From positions 1,054,001-1,118,000 of the forward strand of contig NZ_JARKMR010000001.1 in assembly GCF_029350975.1 (NCBI RefSeq): a DNA stretch of 64,000 nucleotides. Reading direction: 5' to 3'. The translations under genes and the position numbers were made by a program. How positions within the stretch are numbered: position 1 is the first letter of the stretch; each line of letters begins with the position of its first letter. Positions 10,437-19,163 of the stretch are shown here, one piece after another. The notes below the pieces were generated by a model. It worked only from the letters and a program-made list of their open reading frames with translations, ran no database searches and was not told the origin of the DNA. The DNA comes from Maribacter zhoushanensis (GTDB lineage: Bacteria; Bacteroidota; Bacteroidia; Flavobacteriales; Flavobacteriaceae).

Positions 10437-10829
10437 TTAGTTTATAGGGTTTTTTAATAGAAAACGGTTTTTAATTTCTAGACAGGTAACGGTAAGTATA
10501 CCTAAGGTGTATGCCAATAAATCTTGAATGCTAAAATAATTTCCGAAGATTAGATTCGCCCATTTAGAATGCTGTAGTCCAAAGTAACTAAGCATGTTCG
10601 TTAGCTGTAAAAACTCTATCACATATGCTATAAGTAAGGTAACAATACCGATGGCTATATCATTTGCCTTTACGAAGGATTTAAAAAAGAAAAACATCAA
10701 AATAACCACTAGATAGTCTCCGAAAGTGTGTCTAATAAATCCTGATTTTAAGAATATGGCAATTAAAATTTCTATTACTAGCAGTACTAGAAAGTAAATA
10801 AAATAGATGCGGCGGAATTTAAGTTTCAT
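10437..10829 (-). CDS. DUF2809 membrane protein
   Basis: A 130-residue protein with four predicted membrane helices. The conserved features are FGDYLVVILMFFFFKSF in the first half and AYVIEFLQL followed by the Gly/Asn-rich loop GNYFSIQDLLAYTLG in the second, as in DUF2809 proteins. Function unknown. It is the last gene of a minus-strand run, 12 bases after the previous stop, so it is likely co-transcribed with the two membrane-protein genes upstream. Confidence 0.75.
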   Translation of the reverse strand: MKLKFRRIYFIYFLVLLVIEILIAIFLKSGFIRHTFGDYLVVILMFFFFKSFVKANDIAIGIVTLLIAYVIEFLQLTNMLSYFGLQHSKWANLIFGNYFSIQDLLAYTLGILTVTCLEIKNRFLLKNPIN

Positions 10830-10841
10830 TTGTATTAATAT

Positions 10842-11138
10842 TTAAGCGGTTCTAAAATATAGGAATAGCAAACTCATTGGGAAATTCAGAATTAGTAAGG
10901 TAAAAGCCATGGTATGCTCATGTAAATCTTTTGAATACTTGAATACATTTACCAATAATATGACTAAGGCAATGCAAGTAATGAGGATATAACACAGAAA
11001 TAGTATAAGACCGACAAAGGCGACAATTTCAGTTTCTGGCATTAAGGTTATACACATTAGAAATGTAGAGAGCAGAAAATATATAGTGACTACTCTCACA
11101 ATTCTACGGTTCCATTTATGTTTAAATAATGCTATCAT
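10842..11138 (-). CDS. Small membrane protein of unknown function
   Basis: A 98-residue protein with a basic N-terminus (FKHKWNRRIVR) and three hydrophobic segments at about 17-35, 40-65 and 77-95. I recognise no family. Its ATG overlaps the stop of the DUF4173 gene by 4 bases, so the two are translationally coupled and very likely act together. Confidence 0.65.
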   Translation of the reverse strand: MIALFKHKWNRRIVRVVTIYFLLSTFLMCITLMPETEIVAFVGLILFLCYILITCIALVILLVNVFKYSKDLHEHTMAFTLLILNFPMSLLFLYFRTA

Positions 11139-12535
11139 TTTAAATCATTTTGAACCAACTGAACTAAGGTATATTCTTGCCATGTTTTTTCCGATTGTAG
11201 GGTTTTGTATGCTTTGTATTTATCTTGAATACTGATTTTAAGGTCGTAGTTTACATTCTTCTCTTTCGCATACTGGTACAATTGAATGCTATTGGTATCA
11301 CCTAAATCTATGAGGTAATGCATATCTGGTTTTTCAAGAGTGTTTAAATTATAATGGGTAATCGCTCTATCCCAAGGTATGGCTGCACTGATTATTAAAA
11401 ATGTAAATACTGTTGCAATGTTGGTGCGTACCAAATAGATAAAACTTTTTATCTCTGTCACTTTTATATATGCGGTTATTAAACCTGTTAGCGTAAGAAG
11501 AAGATATACGAATACACCGATACGTTTGTAAGTAAGACCTAGAGCTTCAACATATGTGAAATTTTTGAATGAAGTAAATACTATAAGTATAATGTTCAAC
11601 GATATCCAGATATAGGTTAATGTTTTTATTTGCTGGTTATTCTTGTAGAAATTAAGGTTGCCTCTAAAAAAGTAGAGAATTAGTATAATAGCCAAGACGA
11701 TAGAAAACATAAGGGCATAAACACCTTGGTGTACAGATGCCGAATATTCCGCATTAGAAATATCGGTTTTTTGAAAAATGTAGATTCCGTCTGTCACTAA
11801 AAAGAAGACCAGAAGAAAATTTAGGGCTATTAAAATGATTGACCCTAAGGTATGTTCATTTTCTAGCTGTTTTTTTTGCCCTATGATTTCTATTTCGGTA
11901 GGAGTTTCTAATTGGTTTTTTTGCGAAAGGTCTGTAGCTACAAGTTCTTGTGCATCTAACGGACGTAAAATATTTAGAAATAAGACGTAGCCAATACATG
12001 TAAAGAACACCCAAGGGATACTTATAAAATCAAAGCTGATTTGATCGATAAGGTTCCCAAAAACGGGATTGGCATTTTTATACAACGCAGTAAATAAAAT
12101 AAGCAATACCACTGCGAAGAATCCACCTTTTAAACGGTTTAATAATTTGGGCGAAGTTTCTTTTTTTGTTGTGTTTTCTTCAACAGCGTTTTGCTTTTGA
12201 ATAAAATTGGCAACAGAAGCGATAAAGAGGTTAATAAACCCTAATAGCCAAGTAAGGTACAAAGATGTCTTGCCTGAAATTGATTTACCTACATAAACCA
12301 TTAATGCCATAAAATGGACAAATACGGTAAACCCTGTTGGGTTGATAAATATAAAAACGGAGGTTAAAACATAGGTTAAGGCGTAGACCCAAGAAACGGA
12401 ACGTGTACCTTTCAGTGTAGAGATTAATACGACTACTAAAATAGATATTAAGAATAAATTTAGTCCAAAGCTTTTACTGTAGAATAGTAGGCTAAAGGCT
12501 AATGCGGATAAGATAGATTTTATGTGAACATTCAT
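11135..12535 (-). CDS. DUF4173 polytopic membrane protein
   Basis: A 466-residue membrane protein with about 11-12 hydrophobic segments and a soluble C-terminal tail (about 395-466). The segment YSASVHQGVYALMFSIVLAI and the later GLTYKRIGVFVYLLL are the recognisable DUF4173 motifs. A polar cytoplasmic loop at about 195-225 is rich in Glu and Gln. The function of DUF4173 is not known. It overlaps the downstream small membrane gene by 4 bases, and begins about 117 bases after the Coq4-like gene on the same strand. Confidence 0.8.
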   Translation of the reverse strand: MNVHIKSILSALAFSLLFYSKSFGLNLFLISILVVVLISTLKGTRSVSWVYALTYVLTSVFIFINPTGFTVFVHFMALMVYVGKSISGKTSLYLTWLLGFINLFIASVANFIQKQNAVEENTTKKETSPKLLNRLKGGFFAVVLLILFTALYKNANPVFGNLIDQISFDFISIPWVFFTCIGYVLFLNILRPLDAQELVATDLSQKNQLETPTEIEIIGQKKQLENEHTLGSIILIALNFLLVFFLVTDGIYIFQKTDISNAEYSASVHQGVYALMFSIVLAIILILYFFRGNLNFYKNNQQIKTLTYIWISLNIILIVFTSFKNFTYVEALGLTYKRIGVFVYLLLTLTGLITAYIKVTEIKSFIYLVRTNIATVFTFLIISAAIPWDRAITHYNLNTLEKPDMHYLIDLGDTNSIQLYQYAKEKNVNYDLKISIQDKYKAYKTLQSEKTWQEYTLVQLVQNDLK

Positions 12536-12652: not shown

Positions 12653-13114
12653 TCATATGTTTTTTGAAATTAAAAATGTGGATTTAATTCGTTCTATAGG
12701 CTGATGCAGTAGTTTTTGAAAATTTAATTGATGAAAGGGTAGGGCAGATCTTCCGCATTTGTATTTAGATTTGAAATACTGCCAATAATCAGGATATAGA
12801 ATAGTGCCAATACAGATTACCGTAAACAGGTAAATACTTCTTTTTCCATTACCTAATAAATAGAATTGCATGCTTATTTCATCTGGTACGGAAATACCAG
12901 TATCTGTGAGTACATGAAAAACATCATGGCTTTCAAGCTTCTCTTGTAATTGAAAGCTATTCTCGGTAAGGAATTGACCCATGTGATAACCAAGAGAGTT
13001 ACTTGGGTAGCGCTTTAAGTCATTGGCATTAAACTGCCAAGCTTCATTATTCTTGAAATACTGATAGGGTGCTACGCTCCAATCATATAATTTTTCTAAA
13101 ATGGCTGCTCTCAT
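12653..13114 (-). CDS. Coq4 family protein
   Basis: A 153-residue soluble protein. The metal motif HDxxHx11E of Coq4 is complete: His63, Asp64, His67 and Glu79 in HDVFHVLTDTGISVPDE. The C-terminal part carries the RSALPFHQLNFQKLLHQP stretch, also Coq4-like. In ubiquinone-making organisms Coq4 acts late in ring modification (reported as oxidative decarboxylation at C1). Bacteroidetes make menaquinone, so the substrate here is probably different. It lies downstream of a winged-helix regulator gene and has a 17-bp palindrome 20 bases before its ATG. Confidence 0.75.
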   Translation of the reverse strand: MRAAILEKLYDWSVAPYQYFKNNEAWQFNANDLKRYPSNSLGYHMGQFLTENSFQLQEKLESHDVFHVLTDTGISVPDEISMQFYLLGNGKRSIYLFTVICIGTILYPDYWQYFKSKYKCGRSALPFHQLNFQKLLHQPIERIKSTFLISKNI

Positions 13115-13133
13115 GTTTTATAATTTTAAAAGT

Positions 13134-13150
13134 ACTTTGAATTTCAAAGT
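13134..13150. promoter_or_regulatory. Operator palindrome upstream of the Coq4-like gene
   Basis: ACTTTGAA-T-TTCAAAGT, a perfect 8-bp inverted repeat. It is nearly identical to the site at 14126-14142. Its distal half overlaps a near-consensus -7 box (TTACTTTG on the minus strand, 13145-13152), so a protein bound here would block the promoter of the Coq4-like gene. The winged-helix protein encoded at 13170-13460 is the obvious candidate binder. Confidence 0.65.
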
Positions 13151-13169
13151 AAAAGAATAAAAAAATATA

Positions 13170-13460
13170 TTATTTGCCTATTAGCTTTTCTAAAGCATTA
13201 ATGTGTTTTTTGAACTGTGCCTTGCCAAGTTTAGTTGCTGAATAACGCGTGTTGGGCTTTCTGCCAATAAATGACTTTTCTACTTTTATATATTCTTCTT
13301 TTTCAAGGGCTTTGGTGTGGCTGGCTAAATTACCATCTGTTGCGCCAAGCAGTTCTTTCAGCATCTTAAAGTCGGCATAATCGTTGACCATTAGAATGGA
13401 CATAATGCCCAAACGTATTCGGTGGTCAAAAGCTTTGTTTATGTTATCAATTAAACTCAT
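13170..13460 (-). CDS. Winged-helix transcriptional regulator
   Basis: A 96-residue protein that is a single winged-helix DNA-binding domain (PF13601-like). The first helix begins FDHRIRLGIMSILM; the recognition region is LLGATDGNLASHTKALEKEEYIKVEKSF, followed by the wing GRKPNTRYSATKLG and a C-terminal helix likely for dimerisation. There is no ligand domain. It sits 21 bases after the membrane protein gene at 13482 and before the Coq4-like gene, and each of those two genes is preceded by the same palindrome, so it probably autoregulates the cluster. Confidence 0.8.
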   Translation of the reverse strand: MSLIDNINKAFDHRIRLGIMSILMVNDYADFKMLKELLGATDGNLASHTKALEKEEYIKVEKSFIGRKPNTRYSATKLGKAQFKKHINALEKLIGK

Positions 13461-13481
13461 ACAGCTGTAGCTAGGCTAATA

Positions 13482-14117
13482 TTAATTTCTATCGTACTTG
13501 TAATACATTAAAGAACCGTAGAGAATATGGCAAACGCCAAATCCTAAAGCCCAAAAATACAATCCATATCCTATAAATTGAGTACTAACTAATCCTATTC
13601 CTATAAATGCTAAACCCATATAGCGAACATCGCCCATGGTGTACTTGCTTGCGTTTACACAAGCCAAACCGTAAAAAATTAAGGTTGCAGGAGCAACTAG
13701 ACCTGCTGCGCCTTGTTGCATAAGTACTAAGCAAAAAATTCCGCCAACTATCAATGGTATGGCAAAGTTGAATACTAGTCGTTTACTGGTACTGTCCCAA
13801 ATTTTCTCGCCGCTTTTTTTAGACTTCTTTAGGGTCATGATGAATCCTGTTATTACCGCAGCAACCAGCACTGCAATGGCAATTAAAGTTAAATCACTAA
13901 CAACACTGGAACCTGATAGAGATGAAGACCTACCAGAAAAGTTTTCGTAATTGGCAGCTGAGGTATCTTTTAGTTTTACATAAGCAAAACCAGCTCCGAT
14001 CAAAGCATAGATCCCGGCAAGTACACCTGAGAGTCCGCTTAGGGAAATAAACCGTGAAGAACGATTCATTATATTCTTAATTTCAGTAATGTCGTTTAGA
14101 TACTTATTCGTCTCCAT
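13482..14117 (-). CDS. Membrane protein co-transcribed with the winged-helix regulator
   Basis: A 211-residue protein with a short cytoplasmic N-terminus (NKYLNDITEIKNIMNRSSRF), then about six hydrophobic segments. A Ser-rich extracytoplasmic loop at about 60-72 (SGRSSSLSGSS) separates the first helices. I recognise no named family, although small membrane proteins of this kind often sit next to this type of regulator in Bacteroidetes. It is the first gene of the run, directly downstream of an operator that overlaps its -7 box. Confidence 0.65.
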   Translation of the reverse strand: METNKYLNDITEIKNIMNRSSRFISLSGLSGVLAGIYALIGAGFAYVKLKDTSAANYENFSGRSSSLSGSSVVSDLTLIAIAVLVAAVITGFIMTLKKSKKSGEKIWDSTSKRLVFNFAIPLIVGGIFCLVLMQQGAAGLVAPATLIFYGLACVNASKYTMGDVRYMGLAFIGIGLVSTQFIGYGLYFWALGFGVCHILYGSLMYYKYDRN

Positions 14118-14125
14118 ATTAAAGT

Positions 14126-14142
14126 ACTTTGAAATACAAAGT
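14126..14142. promoter_or_regulatory. Operator palindrome at the head of the winged-helix cluster
   Basis: ACTTTGAA-A-TACAAAGT, an inverted repeat with one mismatch, 9 bases upstream of the ATG at 14117. It matches the site at 13134-13150 at 15 of 17 positions and overlaps the -7 box TAACTTTG (minus, 14137-14144). Both facts point to an autoregulatory operator for the winged-helix protein. Confidence 0.7.
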
Positions 14143-14144
14143 TA
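14137..14144 (-). promoter_or_regulatory. -7 promoter box of the winged-helix cluster
   Basis: TAACTTTG on the minus strand, a perfect TAnnTTTG match. A TTTG lies at 14167-14170, 22 bases upstream, slightly more than the usual 19. The expected transcription start is about 14130, giving a very short leader before the ATG at 14117. Confidence 0.5.
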
Positions 14145-14354
14145 AATTAAATATTTGAAATTATAACAAAGTATAGTCATAAAAGTGCAGTAAGTCTCCT
14201 TGATTAGAAATATGGTTTAGCCATGAAAGTACCATTCTAGCTATAGATATCGGTCTTAAAATTCAATAGAAATAATTATTTTTTTCGGAGTAATTAATGA
14301 GTCTATGACCTTAGAAACTGACCAATTTTATGAAAAAAAGTGTTTAAGTGTGCT

Positions 14355-15260
14355 TTAATTGATTAATGAAACTCCTAAGCCGAAAGTGGTTTGCCTATGG
14401 TTATAATCAATTAGGGTTTCACCATAACCATCAAACAATTGAAAATGACCGTTAAAATTTTCGAAAATAGGAAAAGACCAGTTCAGCTGTATGCTACCGC
14501 GACTTTTATCTCCTAGATTTAAAGAATGTCTAACAATGGCTCTAAAACGTTGTCTGCCCCAGTCATAACTTATGTCAGCTTCGCCACGACCAATAAAATC
14601 AGATATATTTTCATTGTCATCGATCTTACTTCCAATGCGTATCCACGGTTTTAGTGTTACCTGCCAGTTTCCTTTTTCAAATGCGGCATGAAAAGCAATA
14701 CGGTTCCAACTTCTAGAAATAGGATCAGACTGGCCGTTAGATTCATGAATAATAGCCGCACCTACCATTTTTGTTTCAAAGCCCAATATTGGAAACTTAA
14801 CGGGAAAGTTTGCTATGATTTCTGGCTTATAATTTAATTCACGAAAAGGTCTTGAACGTTCAGAATTATATATCTGCCAGTATGCCGTCTGTGAATAGCC
14901 CATCCATAAATCCATACGTCCGTCAAACATGCCATGAAAGATTTTGGTTTTAAGGCTAATCTGAAATTTTGACTCTACCGCATTAAGGCTGCTAGGTTCG
15001 TCTAAAACCTTATCTGAATTTTCTGCTTGCGGAAATTCATTGGGATTGGTAGAAAATTTTGCGGCAGTTATGTATATGGGTTTATATGAAGTTAGAATGA
15101 ACGTTCCTCTTTGATGCTCATCATCTAGCTCCCATAATTCGCTTAAACTTTTACTATTGTTAAAATACCAATTATGATCATGATCGTCTTGAGAGAAAGA
15201 CGAATGGCAGTAACATAGTATTAATGTGATTATTAAAACAGTAGTTGTCTTTTTAAACAT
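14355..15260 (-). CDS. pldA: Outer-membrane phospholipase A
   Basis: A 301-residue outer-membrane beta-barrel enzyme that hydrolyses acyl chains of phospholipids in the outer leaflet. A signal peptide (about 23 residues, ending SSFSQ) is followed by the barrel. The catalytic motif HESNGQ and the strand RSWNR give His172, Ser174 and Asn186. The Ser-Asn spacing of 12 equals that of E. coli OmpLA (Ser144, Asn156). The C-terminal YGETLIDYN stretch is also conserved in the family. It is monocistronic, with a possible -7 box (TAATTTTG, minus strand) at 15280-15287, about 20 bases before the ATG. Confidence 0.9.
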   Translation of the reverse strand: MFKKTTTVLIITLILCYCHSSFSQDDHDHNWYFNNSKSLSELWELDDEHQRGTFILTSYKPIYITAAKFSTNPNEFPQAENSDKVLDEPSSLNAVESKFQISLKTKIFHGMFDGRMDLWMGYSQTAYWQIYNSERSRPFRELNYKPEIIANFPVKFPILGFETKMVGAAIIHESNGQSDPISRSWNRIAFHAAFEKGNWQVTLKPWIRIGSKIDDNENISDFIGRGEADISYDWGRQRFRAIVRHSLNLGDKSRGSIQLNWSFPIFENFNGHFQLFDGYGETLIDYNHRQTTFGLGVSLIN

Positions 15261-17267: not shown

Positions 17268-17324
17268 CTATTTTAAGAAGCTTACTGTTCTATTAGGATA
17301 AGATTGTCGAAATCCCAAATCGAA

Positions 17325-17891
17325 ATGAAAATCAAACAGTTTTTTATAGTAATAATGTTTTTTGTTTTTGCAGGTAATGCATATGCTCAGTTCGGTAAAA
17401 ATTGCGAGTTAAGACAAGTGAAAATCAATCTACTTAACCCTGGGCTTGAATATGAAATGGCTTTGGGTACCAATACGACTCTTGATGTTAAAGCGGGTAT
17501 ACAAGTGGCTTTAGATCCTCTGTTGCCAGATGTGTATAGCGAATTTGGAGTATTTCCTGCCGTTGCCGCTCAATACCGCTATTACTATAATTTTGAAAAA
17601 CGTCAGCGTAAAAGAAAACAGATTTATGGTAATTCTGCCAATTATGTGGCTCCTGCGGTTGCCGTTTTCTTTCCAGGTTCAAGAACCATTGCCAATGAAA
17701 ACATAGAAGGCGCTTTTGGTTATGCCGGTTTGGTAACAGGTATACAACGTAGTTTTGATTCGGGTTTTAACTTTTCTGTAGATGTAGGTGCGGCATATTA
17801 TGACGGACAATTTGAAGGCGGCATTTATCCGGTAGCGAATTTAAGCATTGGCTTTATCATCAGTGAGAAGCGATGGTGCGTAGGTCGTTAA
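17325..17891 (+). CDS. Secreted beta-barrel-like protein, paralogue 1 of 3
   Basis: A 188-residue protein with a signal peptide ending AYAQ, followed by an amphipathic beta-strand pattern. It shares with the two following genes the opening K-I-N-L-L-N-P-G-L-E-Y-E segment, a YRYYYNF(E)KR(Q)RKRK strand, a NSANYVAP strand, GIQRSFDSGFNFSVD and a C-terminal SIGFIIS strand. These features suggest a small outer-membrane barrel. Function unknown. I took ATG 17325 because a TTG 21 bases upstream would extend ahead of the signal peptide. Confidence 0.7.
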   Translation: MKIKQFFIVIMFFVFAGNAYAQFGKNCELRQVKINLLNPGLEYEMALGTNTTLDVKAGIQVALDPLLPDVYSEFGVFPAVAAQYRYYYNFEKRQRKRKQIYGNSANYVAPAVAVFFPGSRTIANENIEGAFGYAGLVTGIQRSFDSGFNFSVDVGAAYYDGQFEGGIYPVANLSIGFIISEKRWCVGR

Positions 17892-17980
17892 TCACGTAAG
17901 TATTTTCTTAATATTTCTATAAATCAGGTGGATACTTTTTTTTAATCATGTAGTTTTAGTTGCAACATCAATCTAACTAC

Positions 17981-18565
17981 ATGAAAAAAATTACACTGAT
18001 TCTTCTATTCTTATCTATTACAACGGCACATTCCCAAATCAGGGATTTTTCTGAAAAAGGCAACGGACTCGTTAATCTAGAGCGACACCAATTTACAATT
18101 AACTTATTAGGACCGGGAATTAGATATGAGTTAGGTCTTTTTAAAAACGTAAGTGCATCTACCAGTTTTACACCGGCATTTGCTAGGTATCAAGAGGGGT
18201 ATGCCTTAGGTTTTGCTTGGCATACTAGAATTAGATATTACCATAATTTTCAAGAGCGTTTAGATGTGAATAAGAATGTAATAGGTAACTCTGCAAACTA
18301 CATTGGTCCTGCGCGTAGTATTTTCTGGGAGCCAGTACAGTTTACAGATAATATCTCTGACGGAAATAGTGATTATGCCTTTGTATTCTATGGTGGAGTA
18401 TACGGTATTCAGCGAACCAACAGAAAAGGTTTTAATGTAAATGCAGAAGTGGGTTATGGCTATTTTGATTCAAAAACTTTAGATAGTGGTCATGGCTTTT
18501 TGCTTCATGTTACCTTTGGGTGGGTAGCCACAAAAAGAAAATCTACAAAACCAACTTTTGAGTAA
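17981..18565 (+). CDS. Secreted beta-barrel-like protein, paralogue 2 of 3
   Basis: A 194-residue protein with a signal peptide (MKKITLILLFLSITTAHSQ) and the same block order as its neighbours: FTINLLGPGIRYELGL, TRIRYYHNFQERLDVNK, IGNSANYIGPA, GGVYGIQRTNRKGFNVNAEVGYGYF and a final HVTFGWVAT strand. The KR-rich loop after the second conserved strand is shared by all three. It starts about 90 bases after the first paralogue and is probably co-transcribed. No function can be named. Confidence 0.7.
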   Translation: MKKITLILLFLSITTAHSQIRDFSEKGNGLVNLERHQFTINLLGPGIRYELGLFKNVSASTSFTPAFARYQEGYALGFAWHTRIRYYHNFQERLDVNKNVIGNSANYIGPARSIFWEPVQFTDNISDGNSDYAFVFYGGVYGIQRTNRKGFNVNAEVGYGYFDSKTLDSGHGFLLHVTFGWVATKRKSTKPTFE

Positions 18566-18617
18566 TATGGTCTGATATTTGATATACATCCCAAATAAAA
18601 TCAAACCAAACTAAATC

Positions 18618-19163
18618 ATGAAAAAAATCATCTTTTTATCCATTGTTGTTTTGTCTACTTTTTATGTGAATGCACAATCTGTTGGGCAAGTTGAAGACGG
18701 ACTCTTTAAAATTAATGCATTAGCTCCCGGGGTGTCCTATGAATTAGGTATTGGTGCTAAAACTACCTTGAATGCAGAAGCGTTCTTTGGTTTTGCACTG
18801 AATGGTGGGTCAGATAGATCAACTAATTTTGGACTTTATCCAGGTTTAGAGGCAGACCTTAGGCAATACATAAATTTTGACAGAAGGTTGAGAAAAGGAA
18901 AAAATATAGCTAATAACACCGGTAATTATATCGCATTTTTAAATCAACTTCAATTTGGAACACCTATTATCGGTAATTTAGAATATGCCTCAGATTACTT
19001 TTATAATGCTGCTTTGGTATATGGTATACAGCGTACTTACAAAAAAGGATTCTATTGGGGCTTGGCTTTTGGTCCGGGTATTTTTGTTGATGATTTTTAT
19101 ACAGATGCGGGTATTTTAATAGACCTTAGACTTGGCTGGGTTGTAGGTGGTAGAAAAAAGTAG
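18618..19163 (+). CDS. Secreted beta-barrel-like protein, paralogue 3 of 3
   Basis: A 181-residue protein with a signal peptide ending YVNAQ and the blocks FKINALAPGVSYELGI, EADLRQYINFDRRLRKGKN, ALVYGIQRTYKKGFYWGL and the final DLRLGWVVGG. It is the shortest and most diverged of the three tandem copies: the asparagine-rich strand reads NNTGNYIAFLN instead of NSANY. Fifty-two bases separate it from paralogue 2. Downstream is typA, which has its own promoter. Confidence 0.7.
   Translation: MKKIIFLSIVVLSTFYVNAQSVGQVEDGLFKINALAPGVSYELGIGAKTTLNAEAFFGFALNGGSDRSTNFGLYPGLEADLRQYINFDRRLRKGKNIANNTGNYIAFLNQLQFGTPIIGNLEYASDYFYNAALVYGIQRTYKKGFYWGLAFGPGIFVDDFYTDAGILIDLRLGWVVGGRKK

Follow-up and report, generated by a model that had tools for sequence, protein, structure and literature searches.

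What do two nearly identical palindromes do on either side of a gene for a small winged-helix regulator? The question is raised by the window, a stretch of 64,000 nucleotides from Maribacter zhoushanensis, in which an earlier note had singled out ACTTTGAATTTCAAAGT (13134-13150) and ACTTTGAAATACAAAGT (14126-14142) as a pair of matching operators, each lying on a -7 promoter box, in a compact autoregulated unit that links a membrane protein with a Coq4-like protein. The sequence bears out that the palindromes share 15 of 17 positions, that the first lies 19 bases from the Coq4-like start (13114) and the second 8 bases from the membrane-protein start (14117), and that the gene between them encodes a winged-helix protein, a 96-codon member of HTH_34. 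Read along the minus strand, the locus runs in the order OP1, MEM, HTH, OP2, Coq4-like, DUF4153, a 98-aa membrane protein (p98) and DUF2809, with the following features.

14167-14169, minus strand: candidate -33 TTG, with a spacer of 22 in the window (from sequence).
14137-14144, minus strand: -7 box TAACTTTG, whose final six bases double as the left arm of OP1 (from sequence).
14126-14142, minus strand: Operator 1 (OP1), palindrome ACTTTGTATTTCAAAGT in minus-strand reading (from sequence; at most one mismatch in 73/74 family loci).
14121-14125, minus strand: ACTTT extension 3' of OP1, a third half-site-like element (from conservation in 73 family OP1 sites).
13482-14117, minus strand: MEM, a 211-aa membrane protein with a predicted N-terminal helix and six long helices.
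13170-13460, minus strand: HTH, a 96-aa one-domain winged-helix regulator of HTH_34 (PF13601, 104.2 bits).
13159-13165, minus strand: A-tract (T7 on the minus strand), which ends 8 bp 5' of OP2 and adjoins the HTH stop codon.
13134-13150, minus strand: Operator 2 (OP2), palindrome ACTTTGAAATTCAAAGT in minus-strand reading (from sequence; 71/74 family loci).
13129-13133, minus strand: ACTTT extension 3' of OP2 (from conservation; weaker outside the class).
12653-13114, minus strand: Coq4-like protein, 153 aa, with HDxxH-x11-E (PF05019, 32.3 bits, cut-off 22.9).
11135-12535, minus strand: DUF4153 membrane protein, a recurrent target (PF13687, 142.9 bits; stand-alone target in L341).
10842-11138, minus strand: p98, the 98-aa membrane protein, which recurs in the cluster (homologue cluster of 22).
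10437-10829, minus strand: DUF2809 membrane protein, final gene of the apparent operon (PF10990, 75.5 bits; homologue cluster of 43).

Two neighbours of the cluster deserve a record of their own. A phospholipase A1 gene (14355-15260; PF02253, 306.7 bits) lies upstream on the same strand as the cluster, and no relative of it was found in the 84 related stretches searched. Farther along, 17304-19163 encodes, one after another, three proteins of ~180-200 aa that look alike and whose starts resemble signal peptides, judged by eye to be perhaps tandem paralogues.

A palindrome this short invites the suspicion that it is common at random positions in the genome. In its exact form, ACTTTGNANTNCAAAGT occurs at only two places in the 4,257,159-base genome, both of them here, and a control pattern occurs at none. 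With up to two mismatches allowed, the count rises to 44 genomic places against 28 for the control pattern, and the loose pattern is expected 0.66 times in the window by chance, so that only the near-exact palindrome can be treated as specific.

The regulator itself belongs to HTH_34. Residues 15-94 of HTH align with the entire PF13601 profile (1-80 of 80) at 104.2 bits against a cut-off of 27, and HTH is the only match to this profile in the genome. Its nearest named relatives come from Maribacter (99% identity to M. ulvicola), and the only solved relative found with phmmer was 1ub9 (E 2e-8). Across 131 rows, conservation of the recognition-helix stretch DGN-ASH is 97% or more; a structure prediction of HTH was left out because its alignment was shallow and its pLDDT 53.8. 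Distant HTH_34 paralogues carry a GNLSIQ-like sequence at the recognition helix and sit in loci without the motif. Nine such loci (L091-L095 and L097-L100), at 33-43% identity, have the paralogue behind a different membrane protein, followed in four of the nine by ABC transporter-like genes when read by eye, and the palindrome was found in none of the nine within the fetched stretch. These paralogues hint at a wider type of module that pairs a membrane protein with an HTH_34 regulator.

The membrane protein is encoded upstream of HTH in 60/60 class loci, with an insert between them once or more, and in 24/24 phylum loci that hold either gene. Its model (pLDDT 78.5) comprises an N-terminal helix, placed with low confidence, and six long helices, and its first 40 residues are among the best conserved in the protein. 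Pfam offered no family over cut-off, only Pilin_N and DUF3169, both below it. Structural searches with the model yielded no usable match: the best Foldseek E was 0.28, and the best VIA match, to TMEM45A (Z 8.9, rmsd 4.9, 169 aligned), scores as the tool says that unrelated helical bundles do. HTH occurs without MEM in one genome, G119 (L084), where OP2 has one mismatch and is followed by no cluster genes. In four others (G367, G645, G710 and G752) the MEM match contains one in-frame stop each.

The conservation of palindrome and regulator was followed from family to class to phylum. Of 149 family genomes from 148 genera, 83 have the regulator at E <= 1e-5 and 75 at 60% identity or more, a truncated copy in G121 falling outside these 75 orthologue genomes. 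The pattern ACTTTGNNNNNCAAAGT occurs at two or more places in 69/75 genomes with the orthologue vs 3/74 without it (Fisher 3e-31, with genomes counted as independent of phylogeny and kinship ignored). Genomes with the orthologue hold 2.15 sites on average vs 0.64 for the control pattern, and those without it 0.28 vs 0.49. The three exceptional genomes contribute six sites, all without ACTTT; five of the six lie inside frames of at least 128 codons, and one site is followed by GCTTT inside a 702-codon frame.

Within the family sample of 84 fetched loci plus the window, we counted the 74 that have a full orthologue and MEM, leaving 11 out of the OP1 and OP2 tables: L084 (no MEM), L096 (truncated regulator) and the nine distant-paralogue loci. 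Sites were called at one mismatch or fewer to ACTTTGNANNNCAAAGT in the family and at two or fewer to ACTTTGNNNNNCAAAGT in the class. By these rules, OP1 is present in 73 of the 74 loci and OP2 in 71; among named loci, OP1 is exact in 80/80 and OP2 in 78/80. In most family loci OP1 stands a few bases before the MEM start; OP2 usually stands ~20 bases past the HTH stop, and some loci have further genes in this gap.

At the level of the class, the orthologue is found in 128/395 genomes at E <= 1e-16, and the 60 fetched loci of other families hold OP1 in 58 and OP2 in 49 at two mismatches or fewer (the class OP1 count below is 59 sites from these 58 loci, one of the sites, at -849 in L194 with 2 mismatches, being probably spurious). 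The combined pattern of A-tract, OP2 and extension occurs in 69/395 class genomes (control 0), all 69 of which, compared by eye, are among the 128 with the regulator. Across the phylum, MEM is found in 92/296 genomes, 40 of them outside the class, and 29 of these 40 contain the exact palindrome. Outside the class, the 40 genomes hold 35 palindrome sites vs 23 for the control pattern; the number is therefore not telling, and what tells is the position at MEM-HTH. Because MEM, HTH and the operator or operators occur together in 24/29 loci fetched around palindromes outside the class, the operator, judged by these sequences, is probably older than the class. Conservation and co-occurrence thus lend good support to the proposed compact autoregulated unit. 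Two absences may be recorded alongside: in G075, the second genome of the window's genus in the sample, neither regulator nor Coq4-like gene was found, and the unit may have been lost within the genus; in G121 (L096), the regulator match covers residues 2-38 only and the fetched locus lacks the operator, as expected if the pair decays together.

The two members of the pair are not operators of one kind, as had been supposed. A -33 element is part of Bacteroidota promoters, and OP1 has both a candidate -33 TTG and a -7 box that overlaps the operator. A box of the form TAnnTTTG or TAnnTTGY is found at 73/73 family and 45/59 class OP1 sites, and a TTG at -26..-23 at 41/73 and 44/59, respectively; the spacer, 22 in the window vs most commonly 19-20 in relatives, puts the window's own TTG one base outside this span, and it is not counted in the 41. 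The claim of a -7 box on each operator accordingly survives for OP1 (TAACTTTG) and fails for OP2, where the corresponding bases, TTACTTTGA, fit neither form. PMC9723704 gives the -7 box of a flavobacterium as TAnnTTTG with the variant TAnnTTGY, places it at -12 to -5, and ascribes the TAnnTTGY box to an alternative sigma factor; 56/73 family OP1 sites have this TAnnTTGY type. Table 2B of that paper includes a TAnnTTGY promoter ahead of THC0290_1009, which is annotated as a 'probable transmembrane protein of unknown function'. From the published box position, the start site would lie near operator base 11-12. The half-sites are 11 bp apart, which fits a dimer on one face of the DNA, and the arms are nearly invariant in sequence around a loop that varies. 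Directly downstream stands ACTTT, an extension common to both OP1 and OP2, whose bases are 96-100% conserved across the 73 family OP1 sites and which, read by eye, follows 21/22 OP1 sites outside the class.

We propose, with moderate confidence, that HTH is an HTH_34 autorepressor, signalled by MEM, that controls a set of envelope genes from two operators, the second acting as a roadblock. HTH very probably binds the operators, as a dimer on ACTTTG-N5-CAAAGT with the ACTTT extension at the gene side, and we hold with good confidence that it represses rather than activates. Bound at OP1, it would block initiation at the MEM-HTH promoter by covering its -7 box and start site; repression by occlusion is the plain reading because the OP1 operator covers both the box and the inferred start site. 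Bound at OP2, in the transcribed region behind HTH, it would halt RNA polymerase that has leaked from OP1, keeping Coq4-like, DUF4153, p98 and DUF2809 tightly off while low amounts of MEM and HTH are still made. A roadblock is the simplest role for OP2 since the site lacks promoter signals and polymerase must come from upstream, and we regard this part, a block to polymerase arriving from OP1, as tentative, falling just short of an even chance. Since HTH has no ligand domain, the signal probably passes through MEM, which its constant company with HTH makes the best sensor candidate; MEM as the signal partner is an evenly balanced call. In the simplest form, MEM would capture or release HTH at the membrane.

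An operator within an operon without a recognisable promoter is, by its sequence, unusual, and the most durable competing account would make OP2 an ordinary second repressible promoter in a plain two-promoter autoregulated cluster, which is how the earlier note took it. The start codon after OP2 often lies within 10-40 bases. A -7 box fits 29/120 OP2 sites (20/71 family, 9/49 class) and neither TAnnTTTG nor TAnnTTGY is found at the other 91, while a -33 TTG at the OP1 spacing is found at none (0/71 and 0/49; 0/120), so that OP2 does not qualify as a Bacteroidota promoter in the way that OP1 does. An argument for a second promoter comes from stand-alone sites: in three of nine OP2-type sites off the main locus, an exact TAnnTTTG stands at +27, 20 bp past the TTG (TTTG) of the left arm, so that the operator could serve as the -33 element. 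We count this against our preferred reading. An A-tract 5' of a -33 element would resemble a UP element. In these three sites the -33 element appears to lie within the operator, so that, in sequence terms, operator and promoter can be combined in two registers. At the main locus, the exact TAnnTTTG at position 27 is absent, and it is not enriched among the 71 family and 49 class sites. We therefore dropped a promoter downstream of OP2 for main-locus sites, and judge the two-promoter account unlikely, although it is the rival to be taken most seriously. An antisense promoter on OP2 found no support in the position table, read by eye.

What OP2 has in place of promoter signals is an A-tract. An A/T run of at least 7 without TpA lies in the 22 bases at -24..-3 of 69/71 family and 47/49 class OP2 sites; the same run is found at 16/73 and 8/59 OP1 sites. 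The tract lies 9-15 bp 5' of OP2, with TTT at -11..-9 in 94-100% of sites. It contains a TpA step in 1/70 family and 1/46 class all-A/T tracts and is nearly always of the form AnTm. A run of T6 within 24 nt past the stop codon follows HTH in 50/69 cases vs 8/285 for eight other cluster genes, and the tract stays with OP2 where genes have been inserted between HTH and OP2 (L123 and L128, for example). Outside the class, the AnTm tract is present at 19/19 OP2 sites; NCTTT follows 9 of these 19 and is missing from 10. We had considered the tract as a U-tract and gave that reading up because relatives have A-run/T-run tracts; the make-up of the tract and its avoidance of TpA point to DNA shape rather than to a weak RNA-DNA hybrid. 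An intrinsic terminator or RNA hairpin before OP2 was likewise ruled out as a main-locus rule by folding 52-nt stretches: the mean z was +0.13 in the family (z < -2 in 3/71) and +0.29 in the class (z < -2 in 1/49). Among stand-alone sites, L335 folds before the tract (z -5.4), and L301 has a hairpin by eye.

The same tract is the foundation of a second competing account, in which OP2 and the A-tract form a high-affinity or cooperative platform, of bent DNA and perhaps a nucleoid protein, that strengthens repression at OP1, for example by looping. Such a platform would explain an element that is structurally an A-tract (AnTm without TpA in 69/70 family tracts, 45/46 class tracts and all 19 outside the class) and that accompanies OP2 even behind inserted genes. 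It sits poorly with the mostly tract-free OP1, with a 96-aa HTH that has no apparent tetramer-forming part, and with the 10/60 class loci in which OP1 is kept and OP2 goes undetected. We consider it distinctly unlikely. The tract does not mark in-operon roadblocks alone, for it also stands at stand-alone sites, in one case (L341) beside a divergent gene. That HTH is an activator or dual regulator of the cluster is more improbable still: activation under some condition is compatible with all of the data here, but OP1 occupies the -7 box and the inferred start site, which is the position of a repressor. The idea that the palindrome works as an RNA hairpin (an attenuator or a processing site) instead of as protein-binding DNA is scarcely credible, for although ACUUUG and CAAAGU can pair around a 5-nt loop, the arms are conserved in sequence and not merely in pairing, the overlap of OP1 with the promoter would leave its left arm untranscribed, and the presence of the palindrome tracks that of a DNA-binding protein.

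The proposed targets of HTH were read from the genes behind OP2. The first frame of at least 60 codons after the site, in 72 family loci (L084 included; one representative per gene cluster was profile-scanned), encodes CreD in 33, Coq4 in 19, DUF4153 in 10 and other proteins in 10. Other genes that recur in the clusters are DUF2809, DUF1361, DUF218, an MpaB-like oxygenase and a 96-aa membrane protein, p96. The Coq4-like protein of the window matches PF05019 in its C-terminal part only (profile 117-218 of 221), and HDxxH-x11-E, the metal-site motif of Coq4, is kept in 29/29 clustered Coq4 homologues, that of the window included. At this locus a Coq4-like gene does follow OP2; across loci, as their gene content has it, Coq4 is one of several exchangeable targets, and the suggested link between membrane protein and Coq4 is not the essence of the unit.

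The proposal that the motif might occur only before this gene set came close to holding. At least 17 extra exact sites were among the matches listed for family genomes with the regulator; 14 were examined, those of G018 (two) and G057 (one) being left out. Nine of the 14 lack the extension, eight of them inside reading frames and one (L320) intergenic. The remaining five are intergenic with [AT]CTTT, and several precede the same gene families as the main cluster: L300 stands before a DoxX-like gene, L301 before a stand-alone Coq4 relative (PF05019 22.6, just below the cut-off of 22.9), L302 before exosortase K and an MSEP-CTERM protein, L316 before a stand-alone p96, and L317 has an MpaB-like gene on one side and, on the side that the extension faces, a divergent small membrane gene. 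The p96 and MpaB-like genes in these loci were named by likeness to gene clusters of the family loci.

Nine extended OP2-type sites off the main locus were listed as well (L333-L341). They precede Coq4 (L333), p96 with DUF2809 and MpaB-like (L334), MSEP-CTERM (L335; TIGR04286, 742.9 bits), p96 (L336, L338, L339 and L340), DUF4153 with a divergent gene upstream (L341), and a 414-aa protein without a family match in our scans (L337). Eight of the nine are thereby tied to the regulator by another locus, since the families before them also recur with the regulator elsewhere; the extended pattern was searched with the tract partly fixed, and the nine sites are therefore silent on how often the tract is absent. 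The extended operator precedes MSEP-CTERM at both L302, with exosortase K, and L335, loci that come from two distant families. Judged by its sequence neighbours, the regulon appears to be a set of cell-envelope genes that are little understood and that vary from locus to locus.

Both repressor roadblocks and autorepressors that have a membrane partner are kinds already known, and the comparison with known systems defines what would be new. By Pfam and phmmer, HTH belongs to the same family as PH1061 (PDB 1ub9), an entry titled hypothetical protein; here, a conserved operator, a partner and a regulon can be proposed for such a protein. In SdpR/SdpI of Bacillus subtilis, a membrane protein sequesters an autorepressor, and the present locus similarly joins, in a single autoregulated operon, a small putative autorepressor with a membrane protein of several helices. 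Unlike SdpR, however, HTH is not of the ArsR family (NF033788, 18 bits vs a cut-off of 55); unlike SdpI, MEM has no SdpI-family match over the Pfam cut-off; and no toxin is apparent here, the capture of HTH by MEM being a proposal from neighbourhood and co-occurrence. The CreBC/creD regulon of Enterobacteria is under two-component control; CreD is also the commonest first gene after OP2 (33/72), but would answer, if the present reading is right, to an HTH_34 regulator rather than to a two-component system. In the open-licence literature, the terms we searched returned nothing on this operator, on an HTH_34 regulator of CreD or on a Bacteroidota Coq4 regulon.

For elongation itself, PMC10310618 lists PurR, GalR, ArsR, CcpA and CodY as repressors that form roadblocks, and HTH on OP2 would, like them, stop RNA polymerase within the transcribed region. 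Unlike those roadblocks, the putative one at OP2 has a fixed A-tract that ends 8 bp upstream and is conserved across the phylum. A closer likeness, of anatomy only, is with RNA polymerase I terminators (Reb1/Nsi1/TTF1), at which, according to PMC12366685, the polymerase stops within T-rich DNA, 15 bp upstream of the roadblock, and termination also needs an upstream RNA hairpin. Both place a T-rich non-template tract ~15 bp upstream of a protein site; OP2 differs in having no RNA hairpin as a rule, in that some of its tracts are A4T3, and in facing a bacterial polymerase.

The widest version of our preferred reading is a phylum-wide Bacteroidota envelope circuit in which one repressor combines a promoter block with a dedicated A-tract roadblock, under a membrane sensor, with an anatomy like that of RNA polymerase I terminators and a handle on its target families; in this breadth it is possible, and we advance it as doubtful. 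If true, bacteria would have, in the in-operon element, an anatomical counterpart to the RNA polymerase I terminators that combine a roadblock with a T-rich tract. The contrast between OP1 and OP2 opens the direct question of whether dedicated protein roadblocks, each paired with a conserved DNA tract, serve bacteria as regulated stops within operons. The organism of the window is expected to use menaquinone, and its Coq4-like protein becomes testable as an envelope-response protein rather than as a ubiquinone enzyme. Operator, regulator and membrane partner stay constant across the phylum while the targets are exchanged, so that a single deletion strain could assign both a signal and a process to several families of unknown function at once. 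If the reading holds, this would be the first functional handle on the CreD, Coq4-like, DUF4153, DUF2809, MpaB-like and MSEP-CTERM/exosortase K genes.
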